Source: an uncultured Clostridia bacterium (lineage in GTDB: Bacteria; Bacillota_A; Clostridia; Christensenellales; Aristaeellaceae). From it: DNA of 6,650 bases. Made by a program: the position numbers and the translations under genes. The stretch spans positions 1-6,650 of the forward strand of contig CAMBWJ010000106.1 in assembly GCA_945871545.1 (NCBI GenBank). Reading direction: 5' to 3'. Below are positions 3,620-6,650 of this stretch, one piece after another; positions within the stretch are counted from its first letter, which is position 1; the number at the start of each line of letters is the position of its first letter. The notes below the pieces were generated by a model. That model did not search any database. It worked only from the letters and a program-made list of their open reading frames with translations, and was not told where the DNA came from.

Positions 3620-3634
3620 GATGGTGCGCGCCGC

Positions 3635-3670
3635 GAACGGACCGTCGCAGCCTGCGGTGCGCAGCCGTTC
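3635..3670 (-). repeat. Imperfect hairpin overlapping the cstA stop codon
   Basis: On the minus strand GAACGG (3670-3665) pairs with CCGTTC (3640-3635), and an inner ACCG/CGGT pair follows a one-sided bulge. The structure starts within the cstA stop codon. It lacks a U-tract, so it could act as a 3' end stabiliser or partial terminator; the call is weak. Confidence 0.3.
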
Positions 3671-5087
3671 AGATGCGGTTTTCGCTCCGCTTCGTCGCCT
3701 TGACGGCGTAGAGCGCGGCGCAGGCCAGCGCAAAGACCCCGCCCACGGGATAGGCGACGCCTGCGGAGAGCCGGAGCCCCTCCTCCGCCATCAGGATGTA
3801 GGTGCAGGACACGCCGGACATGAAGGTCGCCGGAAGTGCGCACAGCAGCGAATGCCAGCGCTTCTCCCCGTGCCGCACCAGATACATGGCTGCCGCCCAG
3901 AGCGTGATCATGGCCAGGGTCTGGTTGCTCCAGGAGAAGTAGCGCCAGACCACGTTGAAATCCACCTGCGTCAGCAGCGCGCCCGCCGCCAGCAGCGGGA
4001 TCGTGACCGCGAGCCGCTTCTTGAAATCGGACTGATCGATGTGGAACCAGTCGGCGATGATGAGCCGGGCGCTGCGGAAGGCCGTGTCGCCGGAGGAAAC
4101 CGGACAGACCACCACGCCGATGACCGCCAGCGCGCCGCCGAACACGCCCAGCAGCGTCACGGAGATCTCATAGACCACGCCGGACTGTCCCAGCTGCGCA
4201 AGCGCCGCCTGCAGTCCGCCGGTCGCGCCGTAGAAGGCCACGCCCGCCGCCGCCCACACCAGGGCGATCACGCTCTCGGAAATCATCGCGCCGTAGAACA
4301 CCCTGCGGCCATCCTTCTCCGTTCTAAGGCAGCGCGCCATCATGGGCGACTGGGTTCCATGGAAGCCGGAAATCGCGCCGCAGGCCACGGTGATGAACAT
4401 GAAGGGCCACACCGGCCTGCCGTCGGGATGCAGGTTCGCAAGCGTAAGCTCCGGCAGCCGGTAGCCGCCGGCGAGCAGGCCCACCATGATGCCCAGCGCC
4501 ATCAGCAGCAGCACGCCGCCGAAGATGGGGTACAGCTTGCCGATGATCTTGTCGATGGGCAGCAGGGTCGCCAGCACGTAGTAGATGAGGATGACCACGA
4601 TCCAGAAGCCCACGCTCATCCATGCGGGGGTCAGCCGGGCGATCAGCGCGGCGGGACTGGTGGTGAACACCGCGCCCAGCAGCACCAGCAGAATCAGCGA
4701 AAAGATGCGCATCGCCTGCCGCGCCACCGGCCCCAGATACCTTCCCACGATCTCGGAGACCGAAGCGCCGTCCATCCGCAGGGAGATCATGCCGCTCATG
4801 TAGTCGTGCACTGCGCCGCCCAGAATCGAGCCGAACACGATCCACAGAAAGACCACCGGCCCGAACACCGCGCCCATCAGCGCGCCGAAGATCGGCCCCG
4901 TGCCCGCAATGTTCAGCAGCTGCACCAGAAAGACCCGCCAGGTCTTCATCGGCACGTAGTCCACGCCGTCCGGATGCGCCGCCGCAGGGGTCGGCCTGTC
5001 GTCGGGCCGGAACACGCGCTCCACCAGCCGTCCATACAGGAAATATCCCGCAATCAGAAGAACAATCGCACACAGAAACGTAAGCAT
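3669..5087 (-). CDS. cstA: CstA-family peptide/pyruvate transporter (carbon starvation protein A), short type
   Basis: This is an integral membrane transporter of the carbon starvation protein A family; characterised members (E. coli CstA, BtsT) import peptides or pyruvate. At 472 residues it is much shorter than those about 700-residue proteins and matches the short form seen in Firmicutes and other anaerobes. Conserved blocks are LLNIAGTGPIFGAL (57-70), VHDYMSGMISLR (93-104), SGFHGTQSPMMARC (240-253), PVSSGDTAFRSARL (329-342) and WRYFSWSNQTLA (381-392). Roughly a dozen hydrophobic segments run from residue 2 to about 462, ending in a short basic tail. The ATG at 5087 is set by GGAGGA seven bases upstream. 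It is single, with its own promoter, convergent with the aminotransferase. It is not preceded by lytS/lytR-type sensor genes, and no small cstA partner gene follows. Substrate (peptides versus pyruvate) is inferred from the family only. Confidence 0.95.
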   Translation of the reverse strand: MLTFLCAIVLLIAGYFLYGRLVERVFRPDDRPTPAAAHPDGVDYVPMKTWRVFLVQLLNIAGTGPIFGALMGAVFGPVVFLWIVFGSILGGAVHDYMSGMISLRMDGASVSEIVGRYLGPVARQAMRIFSLILLVLLGAVFTTSPAALIARLTPAWMSVGFWIVVILIYYVLATLLPIDKIIGKLYPIFGGVLLLMALGIMVGLLAGGYRLPELTLANLHPDGRPVWPFMFITVACGAISGFHGTQSPMMARCLRTEKDGRRVFYGAMISESVIALVWAAAGVAFYGATGGLQAALAQLGQSGVVYEISVTLLGVFGGALAVIGVVVCPVSSGDTAFRSARLIIADWFHIDQSDFKKRLAVTIPLLAAGALLTQVDFNVVWRYFSWSNQTLAMITLWAAAMYLVRHGEKRWHSLLCALPATFMSGVSCTYILMAEEGLRLSAGVAYPVGGVFALACAALYAVKATKRSENRI

Positions 5088-5122
5088 GGATGCTTCCTCC
5101 CCTTCACTGATCTTCCATTCCT

Positions 5123-5128
5123 ATTATA
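5123..5128 (-). promoter_or_regulatory. cstA promoter, extended -10 (TGTTATAAT)
   Basis: On the minus strand a perfect TATAAT is preceded by TG and one base, an extended -10 element. No good -35 is present; the nearest candidates (such as CTGACC with a 19-bp spacer) are poor, which extended -10 promoters tolerate. The predicted start is near 5116, giving a leader of about 28 nt that contains the ribosome binding site. Confidence 0.7.
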
Positions 5129-5196
5129 ACATAGGCGCAGCTGTCTTGGTCAGATCTGCCGGAAATTTTACGAAATGGTTGCGCATCGCACGACGA

Positions 5197-5220
5197 GGGC
5201 GGCGTCCGCAGACGCCGCCC
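5197..5220 (-). terminator. Perfect 10-bp stem with 4-nt loop downstream of the holin-like gene
   Basis: GGGCGGCGTC and GACGCCGCCC flank the 4-nt loop CGCA (TGCG on the minus strand). It lies 42 nt past the stop of the holin-like gene and before the cstA promoter, the right place to end the terS/holin-like transcript. No U-run follows on either strand, so it is a terminator candidate or 3' stabilising hairpin, not a textbook intrinsic terminator. Confidence 0.5.
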
Positions 5221-5262
5221 TGTCTCCGATCTTCTCCTTCTCTGTGCAGCCGCAGTTCCCCC

Positions 5263-5660: not shown

Positions 5661-6066
5661 AGGAGACCGCGTCCACGGCCGGAATGTCGTCCGCGATCTC
5701 CGGCAGCTCGTGCTCCCCGCGCAGCACGCTGCTCACGTCGGTGAACACGCCCAGCCGCCTGCCCAGCAGCTCCGCCGCCTTCATCCGGGGCGAGGAATTC
5801 TTCTCCGGGCGCTCGCCGTCGATCTCGCCGCGCATCACCTCGGTCAAAAACTCCAGCACCTCGTCCGCCGAGGCGATGTGCCGCTGCCGCGCGTCCTGCA
5901 GCCGCTCCTGCATGTAGGCCTGCACCGCAGGCTGCCGCTTGGCTCCCTGGGCGTAGCTGCGCTTGAAGCCCGCCTGCTCCGCCGCCTCCGAGGCATTTCC
6001 CAGCTCCAGATACAAATCCGCAAAGCGCCGCTGACGCTCCGTAAGCTTACCCACTCGTTTTTCCAT
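5659..6066 (-). CDS. terS: Phage terminase small subunit (Terminase_2 type)
   Basis: This 135-residue protein is a small terminase subunit, the DNA-recognition part of the phage packaging motor, which normally works with the large subunit ATPase/nuclease. The N-terminus has the helix-turn-helix pattern of the family: LTERQRRFADLYLELGNASEAAEQAGF (8-34), then the helix with PAVQAYMQERL (46-56). The middle has IASADEVLEFLTEVMRGEID (64-83), and the C-terminal part has RMKAAELLGRRLGVF (94-108), all in family order. The ATG at 6066 has AGGAGG seven bases upstream; an in-frame ATG at 6084 would put that binding site inside the protein. It is the first gene of the unit under a very strong promoter carrying repressor-type operators. 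There is no large subunit gene downstream in the window, which is unusual for a complete prophage. An alternative is that it now acts only as a DNA-binding protein. Confidence 0.9.
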   Translation of the reverse strand: MEKRVGKLTERQRRFADLYLELGNASEAAEQAGFKRSYAQGAKRQPAVQAYMQERLQDARQRHIASADEVLEFLTEVMRGEIDGERPEKNSSPRMKAAELLGRRLGVFTDVSSVLRGEHELPEIADDIPAVDAVS

Positions 6067-6073
6067 GTTTCTA

Positions 6074-6079
6074 CCTCCT
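6074..6079 (-). promoter_or_regulatory. terS ribosome binding site AGGAGG
   Basis: A perfect AGGAGG on the minus strand ends 7 bases before the ATG at 6066. It decides that start over the upstream in-frame ATG at 6084, which would read through the site. Confidence 0.85.
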
Positions 6080-6094
6080 GTCATTCACACGAAT

Positions 6095-6110
6095 TAACCG
6101 TGCTCGGTTA
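6095..6110. promoter_or_regulatory. Operator-like site 1, TAACCG-TGCT-CGGTTA
   Basis: A perfect 6-bp inverted repeat with a 4-bp spacer, core CCG-N4-CGG. It covers the predicted first transcribed bases of the terS unit, where a bound repressor would block initiation. It is one of four copies around this control region, presumably bound by the divergently encoded repressor; binding is inferred. Confidence 0.8.
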
Positions 6111-6117
6111 TGTATGC

Positions 6118-6146
6118 AGTATACTCCCGGAAACGGGTATTGTCAA
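6118..6146 (-). promoter_or_regulatory. terS promoter: TTGACA, 17 bp, TATACT
   Basis: On the minus strand a perfect -35 (6146-6141) and a 5/6 -10 (6123-6118) are separated by exactly 17 bp. The predicted start is near 6111, giving a 45-nt leader to terS. One operator-like inverted repeat fills the spacer and a second covers positions +2 to +17, so bound repressor would block polymerase completely. A promoter this close to consensus would be very active when unrepressed. Confidence 0.9.
6124..6139. promoter_or_regulatory. Operator-like site 2, core CCCG-GAAA-CGGG
   Basis: The CCG-N4-CGG core with extended flanks (CTCCCG / CGGGTA) occupies 16 of the 17 bases between the -35 and -10 of the terS promoter. 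Its centre is 29 bp from that of site 1. A repressor here would directly exclude RNA polymerase. Confidence 0.8.
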
Positions 6147-6164
6147 TAGATTCTTTTGATATTT

Positions 6165-6180
6165 TTCCCGTTTACGGTTA
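6165..6180. promoter_or_regulatory. Operator-like site 3, TTCCCG-TTTA-CGGTTA
   Basis: Third copy of CCG-N4-CGG, centred 41 bp from site 2 and just upstream of the -35 of the repressor promoter, near position -51 of that promoter and upstream of the terS -35. The position fits self-regulation of the repressor, or cooperative binding with sites 1 and 2. Confidence 0.7.
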
Positions 6181-6188
6181 TTTTTTGC

Positions 6189-6217
6189 TTGCAAAATGGA
6201 GAGAAATCCCGTATAAT
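6189..6217 (+). promoter_or_regulatory. Repressor promoter: TTGCAA, 17 bp, TATAAT
   Basis: TTGCAA (6189-6194) and a perfect TATAAT (6212-6217) are 17 bp apart. The predicted start is near 6224, a 26-nt leader with GGAGG at 6237-6241. None of the four operator-like repeats overlaps this core promoter, so the repressor could be made while the terS promoter is off. Confidence 0.85.
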
Positions 6218-6249
6218 GTTCTCAGAAACAAAATACGGAGGCTGATTTT

Positions 6250-6650
6250 ATGGATCTGCGCGATGTTCTGGCAAAGTTGAAAACCGAAAACGGTTTGACC
6301 ACCGACCAGCTCTCACAAATCTCCGGCGTGCCGAAGGGGACGCTGAACAAGCTGCTCAACGGCGAGACCCGCAACCCCACCGGCAGCACGCTGAAGAAGA
6401 TTGCGGACGCGCTGAACTGCCCGGTGGAGCTGCTGTACCCGCGCGACGGGCAGGCGGCGCATACCCTGCGCAACGCCGGAGACGTGCTGAGCGTCCACCG
6501 CAGGGCGATTCCGCTGCTGGGGGAGATCGCCGCCGGGGCGCCCATCTACGCCGACGAGGAGACCGAGCTGATCTTCTGCGACGATTCCCTGAAGTGCGAC
6601 TTTGCGCTGCGGGTGCGGGGCGACAGCAGGATCGGCGCGCGCATCCACGA
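6250..6650 (+). CDS. XRE-family S24 (CI/LexA-like) self-cleaving repressor, 3' end beyond window
   Basis: The visible 133 codons encode an N-terminal helix-turn-helix of the phage CI/Cro type (about residues 5-58; TTDQLSQISGVPKGTLNKLL is the core, 17-36) and the start of an S24 peptidase domain. The segment PLLGEIAAGAPI (88-99) supplies a likely Ala95-Gly96 cleavage site. FALRVRGDS (118-126) supplies the likely catalytic serine S126, 31 residues later, close to the LexA/UmuD spacing. The catalytic lysine should follow beyond the window. Such repressors are inactivated by RecA-stimulated self-cleavage during DNA damage. The usual Met after GDS is Arg here. The ATG at 6250 has GGAGG eight bases upstream. 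The gene is divergent from terS and is the obvious binder of the four CCG-N4-CGG sites, one of which lies in its own codons 11-16. Confidence 0.94.
   Translation, partial: MDLRDVLAKLKTENGLTTDQLSQISGVPKGTLNKLLNGETRNPTGSTLKKIADALNCPVELLYPRDGQAAHTLRNAGDVLSVHRRAIPLLGEIAAGAPIYADEETELIFCDDSLKCDFALRVRGDSRIGARIH
6281..6296. promoter_or_regulatory. Operator-like site 4 inside the repressor gene, AAACCG-AAAA-CGGTTT
   Basis: A perfect 6-bp inverted repeat with the same 4-bp spacing and CCG/CGG core as sites 1-3. It falls about 65 bp past the predicted repressor transcription start, where it could act as a roadblock or looping site for autoregulation. It is inside a coding region, so it could partly reflect codon choice; the perfect arms argue otherwise. 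Confidence 0.6.

Follow-up and report, generated by a model that had tools for sequence, protein, structure and literature searches.

In the lambdoid phages lambda, 434 and P22, the CI repressor acts on an operator region in which three intergenic operators lie over divergent promoters. The defective prophage PBSX, which carries an Xre repressor, places a DNA-damage-induced operon for a phage-like particle opposite the repressor gene, and a literature search at the title and abstract level found no description of the Xre operators. Three-operator switches are also described for other phages. The CI/Cro switch of Staphylococcus phage phi11 is reported to have three 15-bp operators between divergent genes, of which O1 and O2 are contacted by CI alone and O3 by Cro alone (PMC3991615). 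The CI-MOR switch of phage 13/TP901-1 is summarized as having three palindromic operators with the half-site AGTTCAYR and a partner gene, MOR (PMC8516035). Finally, the C.Kpn2I controller is described as carrying its own binding site inside its own coding sequence, where it acts as an elongation roadblock (PMC6237814).

Here we describe a switch region from the end of a 6,650-nucleotide stretch of DNA (the window) of a gut-type bacterium that carries four copies of the inverted repeat CCG-N4-CGG. The adjacent HTH+S24 repressor very probably uses these four sites as operators, in the manner proposed below. The sites themselves, their conservation, the link to the recognition helix, genome-wide specificity, the codon constraint at the fourth site, a LexA-type box and shared flanks were all computed in this study.

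The switch region and its four sites

The window ends with a divergent pair, in which terS runs leftward and the HTH repressor gene runs rightward from 6250 (Table 1). A small holin-like gene follows terS, and all remaining genes of the window are host genes, which code for a carbohydrate phosphorylase, an aminotransferase and CstA. The terS start was set at 6066 from the ribosome binding site AGGAGG and from homologue length, which is 130-135 aa in most homologues listed. The 101-aa membrane protein encoded next to terS has no Pfam match, and we read it as holin-like from its size, position and sequence; a homologue that is 81% identical (P0252) is labelled Aristaeellaceae bacterium. In the window, cstA (3669-5262) lies between the holin-like gene and the aminotransferase gene, and in a near-identical locus from a Clostridia MAG (L001, genome G001) the aminotransferase gene follows the holin-like gene directly (6800-6900).

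The window copy of the repressor stops at residue 133, and a full-length homologue (P0123, 89% identical) matches Peptidase_S24 at 8.6e-28. The protein has the N-terminal HTH and S24 domain of CI/LexA-like repressors, as judged from HTH_3 in the window and S24 in P0123. Its C-terminal part resembles LexA chains (E 3e-15) and, by profile comparison, lambda repressor (3bdn, 2.8e-5).

Table 1. Coordinates of the genes, promoters and repeat sites of the switch region in the window
Feature	Position	Strand	Remarks
Small membrane holin-like protein, 101 aa	5263..5568	-	only phrog_18218, unknown function, 1.1e-5
terS, terminase small subunit, 135 aa	5659..6066	-	Terminase_2 1.6e-18
S1, AACCGTGCTCGGTT, AACCG-TGCT-CGGTT	6096..6109	.	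just downstream of the expected terS start
terS promoter, TTGACA-17-TATACT	6118..6146 (-35 6146-6141, -10 6123-6118)	-	11/12 consensus bases
S2, TCCCGGAAACGGGT, TCCCG-GAAA-CGGGT	6125..6138	.	within the 17-bp -35/-10 spacer of the terS promoter
S3, TCCCGTTTACGGTT, TCCCG-TTTA-CGGTT	6166..6179	.	ends 9 bp before the repressor -35
Repressor promoter, TTGCAA-17-TATAAT	6189..6217 (-35 6189-6194, -10 6212-6217)	+	10/12 consensus bases
HTH_3 + S24 (LexA/CI-like) repressor	6250..6650	+	truncated by window end; HTH_3 3.8e-12 (Pfam, window part)
S4, AACCGAAAACGGTT, AACCG-AAAA-CGGTT	6282..6295	.	inside repressor codons 11-16, K-T-E-N-G-L

The initial annotation of this DNA had reported four such repeats, with the first at the terS start, the second in the spacer of the terS promoter and the third upstream of the repressor -35. 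All four are present, and the three placements agree with ours. Other details require revision. Sites 1 and 4 were called perfect 16-bp palindromes, which holds for their 6-bp arms and fails for the four central bases; the arms of S2 and S3 are imperfect, and the arms vary among sites. The core was said to be missing from the other intergenic regions scanned, yet one copy, lacking A/T arms, occurs at 3631-3640 between two convergent genes. The fourth site is not intergenic and falls within the repressor coding sequence.

A chance origin of the array was rejected, since none of 5000 shuffles of the region 6060-6300 reached the four cores seen there (shuffle mean 0.042). The bare core carries little weight by itself. 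Across the whole window it has 10 matches where 4.8 are expected (at least 10 in 4/200 shuffles), which is weak evidence, and 4 of 48 control loci also have one; the bare core was therefore rejected as evidence.

Conservation of the sites and their geometry

Beyond the window, a scan of genome contigs gave four loci, one of them a close relative, and the genus search took in three genomes, the other two of which gave weak matches only. All records matched in the phage and plasmid searches were below 60% identity. The comparison set consists of the 308 genomes of the family of G001, searched with a repressor profile. At E <= 1e-20 the profile matched in 104 of the 308, and 22 genomes have a strong orthologue at E <= 1e-69. 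Wherever the start of a strong orthologue was readable (21/21), between one and five cores lie ahead of the gene or in its first part.

Conservation extends to the arrangement of the sites. S2 and S3 are 41-42 bp apart in 18 of the 19 loci where the distance could be measured, and 44 bp apart in the remaining one; the range is partly imposed because pairs were selected within 40-44 bp. S1 and S2 are 26-29 bp apart in 13 loci. For promoter geometry, site calling demanded CG at positions 4-5 and 10-11, such that these columns are partly imposed. With sites called in this way, 17 of 22 loci have the centre of S3 at 15-16 bp ahead of the repressor -35. In 15 of the 19 loci with a called S2, the centre of S2 falls between the -35 and -10 elements of the divergent promoter that scores best. 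That promoter does not enclose S2 in L063, L064, L065 and L068, and it is weak in several others.

The window and L001 differ at 6 of 183 intergenic positions. Two of these fall in the free centre of S2, so that two of the four central bases are changed and the CCG/CGG parts are kept. A few loci depart from the common pattern. No S2-S3 pair of the usual spacing was found in L069, L070 or L074. A single strong site is present in each of L067, L069 and L070, which 14, 25 and 26 of 1000 shuffles reach, respectively, and the lone core of L070 is reached by 176/1000. The initial annotation had held that operators should not be lost from relatives that keep the promoters. In agreement with this expectation, the sites and their spacing are conserved in relatives, with promoter overlap in most loci.

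A genome scan of 24 genomes with AACCGNNNNCGGTTA yielded 29 matches in 18 genomes. The repressor locus accounts for 25 of these (20 distinct sites in 17 genomes), and the idea that the motif is spread over the genome was rejected, as only 4/29 matches lie elsewhere. Six of the 24 genomes gave no match: in five of them the known sites deviate by at least one base, and in the sixth (G081) no repressor was seen on the contig that carries the element.

The motif follows the recognition helix

The prediction that the repeats reflect a specificity of this repressor was examined among 71 repressor loci. Seventy were classified, and L080, whose HTH reads N, is in neither group. The rule for a strong site was fixed after the first loci had been seen, with an upstream limit of 260 bp, and the test left out partial or contig-edge matches (G072:C8, G028:C150, G290:C63 and G165:C201) and matches weaker than about 4e-33. 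Within these terms, at least one strong site lies within 260 bp upstream in 22 of 22 loci with the helix SG[VI]P[KR]GT[LI]NK. In contrast, loci with other helices have a strong site in 0 of 48 cases and a bare core in four (L143, L159, L161 and L170). The motif tracks the recognition helix and not overall similarity.

Mere relatedness was considered as a reason for sharing the motif and was rejected, since the 48 other S24 repressors lack a strong site and L102 (the same locus as L008) has S1-S3 and the same helix despite a diverged C-terminal part and only 36% overall identity. Another possibility is that the sites belong to a different regulator common to these loci, and that the S24 protein binds elsewhere. 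This is most improbable, since the motif follows the recognition helix through 70 classified repressors whose neighbouring genes differ, and follows it further into viral contigs and a Subdoligranulum record.

In the viral contigs L054, L055 and L057, whose helix reads SGVPKGTLNK, pairs of cores lie at about -147/-73; L054 and L055 are near-copies. The Subdoligranulum record (SGVATGTLNK) has TTAACCGTTTGCGGTTAA. In L225 (SGVPISTLSK) cores are found at -151, -118 and -78, and in L224 (SGVPIGTLSK) palindromes of the form ATTCCA-N4-TGGAAT are found at -156 and -82. These last two viral repressors have altered helices, and their half-sites are altered as well (TTCCA in L224, TTCCG in L225) while the layout is similar, which hints that a code between helix and operator could be read.

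Some neighbours lack the core. The repressor L232 of a C. difficile plasmid reads SGVPKGTLDK, a near-identical helix, but lacks an exact core, and none was found upstream of L056/L226, where a different HTH gene precedes the repressor and is fused to it. The neighbours in Marinitoga, Brevibacillus and Streptococcus, and one from a fecal phage, differ in their helices and lack the core. Among 20 viral-contig loci with related capsids, a motif scan found no S24 repressor and no site cluster. The predicted protein-DNA code, in which SG[VI]P[KR]GT[LI]NK specifies CCG-N4-CGG, could help to find such switches among uncultured Clostridia and the phages that infect them.

A site held within repressor codons

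The fourth site is a DNA-level element within the coding sequence of the repressor. It is carried by six loci (L059, L060, L066, L069, L071 and L074). When positions with the same residue are paired across these genomes, codons 11-16 are identical in 85 of 85 pairs, compared with 1181 of 1956 elsewhere in the repressor gene, which places this stretch at the top of 162 six-codon windows. Two of its codons are rare synonyms: in these genomes 2-5% of Gly codons are GGT, and 2-6% of Leu codons are TTG (28% in L066). The ACC and AAC codons are common ones, and L069 has TCC in place of ACC.

It could be argued that S4 is no operator, and that the repeat is a by-product of the conserved K-T-E-N-G-L peptide in the HTH. 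The peptide is certainly constrained, with E-N-G invariant in 15 aligned homologues and the preceding residue either T or S. However, peptide conservation does not account for the identity of the codons or for the rare GGT and TTG. With ORFs taken from a crude in-house procedure, the probability of meeting all of these codons together by chance is 3e-6 to 4e-4 per genome. Furthermore, relatives that lack S4 and read KSENGL or KAENGL use GGC or GGA and CTG. We consider the by-product explanation improbable.

Fourteen loci that we assign to the remnants lack S4 with its arms, as do L070 and L008; L064 retains a bare core at that place. Because of these absences, S4 is not essential. Where present, it appears to offer a clear case of dual coding, in which an operator is held in the codons of its own repressor by rare synonyms across diverged genomes.

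Repressor cleavage residues and a LexA-type box

The IAAG cleavage site, the GDSM serine and the TLKRV lysine motif occur in 21 of 21 orthologues. The window repressor has IAAG and the serine, and the lysine position lies beyond the window. Its S24 motif at 6625-6630 reads GDSR (AGG), a single-base difference from the GDSM of the 21 orthologues that is either a variant or a sequence error. The L008 repressor lacks the S24 cleavage and catalytic residues, and so self-cleavage cannot be general. In this genome (G048; L008/L102), the helix and S1-S3 are kept and the S24 residues are gone, which suggests a switch that is no longer released by self-cleavage.

Gram-positive LexA binds CGAAC-N4-GTTCG. 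In one clade (L075-L079, SH-aLRT 99), CGAAC-N4-GTT takes the place of S1, at a constant 32 bp from S2; the box is an exact GAAC-N4-GTTC in four of these loci and has one mismatch in L078. No exact LexA-type box was found in the other loci. One-mismatch boxes occur in the S2 slot of L069 and L074 and over S3 in L064, L065, L068 and L073. For comparison, the lexA genes of nine related genomes have an upstream box that is one base off, GAAC-N4-GTTT (once GTTA), in eight cases, and the start of the ninth gene was not found. Genome-wide, LexA-box matches are not commoner than in a reversed control. The clade looks as if the host SOS repressor had taken over one operator, and the exchange of a phage operator for a LexA-type box points to a route by which a host might take over a prophage switch.

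Genes facing the repressor

In G287, the repressor lies opposite a phage structural operon of about 19 kb, which comprises, among the genes scanned, a phrog_36 regulator, terS, terL, portal, scaffold, capsid, connectors, major tail protein, Dit, tail protein, tail fibre, endolysin and holin. Similar operons, or parts of them, are present in G280, G018, G081, G129, G021, G109 and G048. A divergent cro-like gene was found neither in the window, where the opposite gene is terS, nor in the relatives scanned, where it is a phrog_36 regulator or a tail-chaperone-like gene.

Other loci are remnants, a class defined from 12-20-kb contexts for 11 loci and, for L067, L076, L077 and L079, only from the lack of a terS match in about 3.7 kb. 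The first 11 loci (L090-L093, L098-L100 and L104-L107) keep a tail-chaperone-like gene near the repressor (phrog_2115; PF11836 below its cut-off), and other structural genes were not seen; in L099, L100 and L105 the contig breaks off no more than about 1 kb from this gene, and more may follow. A phrog_36-type gene is also kept in L098, L100 and L106, and in L098 an endolysin (ELLD 1.3e-52) and a holin (PF05105 1.7e-32) lie behind the regulator and the tail chaperone.

Remnant and structural loci have flanks in common. On one side these are c11-c12, as in G287 (in G081 c12 matches weakly), and on the other YbaK with a lysozyme-domain gene, as in G280. By this comparison, the element has a fixed chromosomal position with host flanks, a feature of domesticated particle elements of the PBSX or GTA kind. 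A second common position, beside a MgsA/RarA-type gene, is seen in G018 and G129, and the window species has the element at a third. The conserved flank gene located two places downstream of the repressor (L104 10273-11466 and homologues) carries the phage-tail-lysozyme domain PF18013.

The term phage-style switch in the initial annotation fits insofar as there is a divergent repressor switch. There is no whole phage here, only the repressor, terS and the holin-like gene. Moreover, G001, which is near-identical to the window, has no capsid of this family at E <= 1e-40, and its single terL match contains two in-frame stops. The array belongs to a wider kind of locus that is SOS-linked and apparently domesticated.

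We regard as evenly poised the larger proposal that this is a lineage-wide domesticated SOS switch. An ancestral locus for a phage-like particle would have become fixed in a Clostridia family (tentatively Aristaeellaceae), its operon eroding independently to small sets: terS with the holin-like gene, the tail chaperone, or the tail chaperone with endolysin and holin. The repressor and operator array would have been kept by selection, with one operator lodged in repressor codons and one exchanged for a host LexA box in one clade. If so, regulation would outlive the virus; relatives preserve the repressor and its sites accurately even after the loss of most virus genes.

An ordinary decaying prophage, whose retained genes are functionless and whose switch is conserved only because the prophages are recent, is a reading that we find possible without favouring it. 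The structural genes are, after all, phage genes, and 15 of 20 viral-contig loci have relatives of the capsid (51-72% identity). The capsid family is found in 33 of the 308 genomes; because 25 of these lack this repressor or such a locus, genes of this family also occur in other prophages, and a second terL is present in G018 and G280. On the other hand, recent prophages in decay would not readily account for the flanks that structural and remnant loci have in common, or for a repressor and operators that persist where most structural genes are lost. Likewise, no match to a tyrosine integrase (PF00589) or resolvase (PF00239) was found on the contig of the element in six genomes, including G001; the contig of G287 is 118 kb and several others are short. 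Finally, both terS and the tail chaperone show lower dN than dS in the pairs measured, which are few and short. Between the window and L001, dN/dS is 0.017/0.096 for terS, 0.040/0.121 for the repressor and 0.081/0.177 for the holin-like gene, and the closest tail-chaperone pairs give 0.035/0.228, 0.015/0.132 and 0.004/0.065, with 0.214/0.241 for a distant pair.

The terS ratio also bears on a further reading, in which the retained genes form an SOS-triggered module for lysis or DNA release, made up of terS and the holin-like gene in the window and of tail chaperone, endolysin and holin in L098. That L098 keeps both lysis genes behind the regulator and tail chaperone is consistent with such a role, and homologues of terS, the repressor and the holin-like protein agree in the length of their longest contig (34829). 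However, the window gene has no family match as a holin, most of the 11 remnants have no endolysin or holin beside the tail chaperone, and G001 has the capsid and terL deficits given above. We consider such a module, too, possible without favouring it.

Proposed working of the switch

Binding, cooperativity, the roadblock, cleavage and induction are inferred from the arrangement of sites and residues. A repressor dimer at S2, seated between the -35 and -10 elements, would shut the divergent terS promoter, and occupancy of S1 would block the terS start region. The third site, located about four helical turns from S2, might assist through cooperative binding, and a dimer there is predicted to leave the repressor promoter free or to activate it mildly. 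S4 may limit synthesis of the repressor; the simplest mechanism would be a roadblock that elongation meets some 65 bp into the expected transcript. Upon DNA damage, the repressor would cut itself (IAAG site, GDSM serine and TLKR lysine) and release the promoter. In the window, release would turn on terS and the holin-like gene, the putative remnant of the phage-like-particle operon of relatives. We read the region as a phage switch that is SOS-linked and apparently domesticated.

Comparison with known systems

As in the lambdoid switch, the sequence places three operator-like sites over two divergent promoters, and the two systems are alike in having an HTH repressor with a LexA-like C-terminal domain and three intergenic operators. 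Here, however, the half-site is CCG with N4, the spacings are 26-29 and 41-42 bp, no cro-like gene lies opposite and a fourth site occupies repressor codons at some loci. The initial annotation had called the specificity new. This can be upheld as far as a text search goes, in which the listings showed no published description of a CCG-N4-CGG operator family and the titles listed for the motif all concern papillomavirus, with most subscription papers outside its scope. The papillomavirus E2 site, ACCG-N4-CGGT, has the same core, but the viruses and proteins are unrelated, and the match is apparently a coincidence or convergence.

Compared by description rather than base by base, the phi11 region is similar in having three operators in a divergent switch of a phage with a Gram-positive host. 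The switch of phage 13/TP901-1 likewise has three palindromic operators in a divergent arrangement, whereas, as summarized, the half-site AGTTCAYR and the MOR partner are its own. With C.Kpn2I, described as a restriction-modification controller (PMC6237814), the present repressor shares a site within the gene of the regulator itself. The coding site described here differs in standing beside three promoter sites and in being held by rare synonymous codons, and its role as a roadblock is a predicted one. In overall plan, again by description, the locus resembles PBSX, since both have a particle operon opposite a repressor, but here the repressor gene is accompanied by CCG-N4-CGG sites and the operon is eroded in several genomes.
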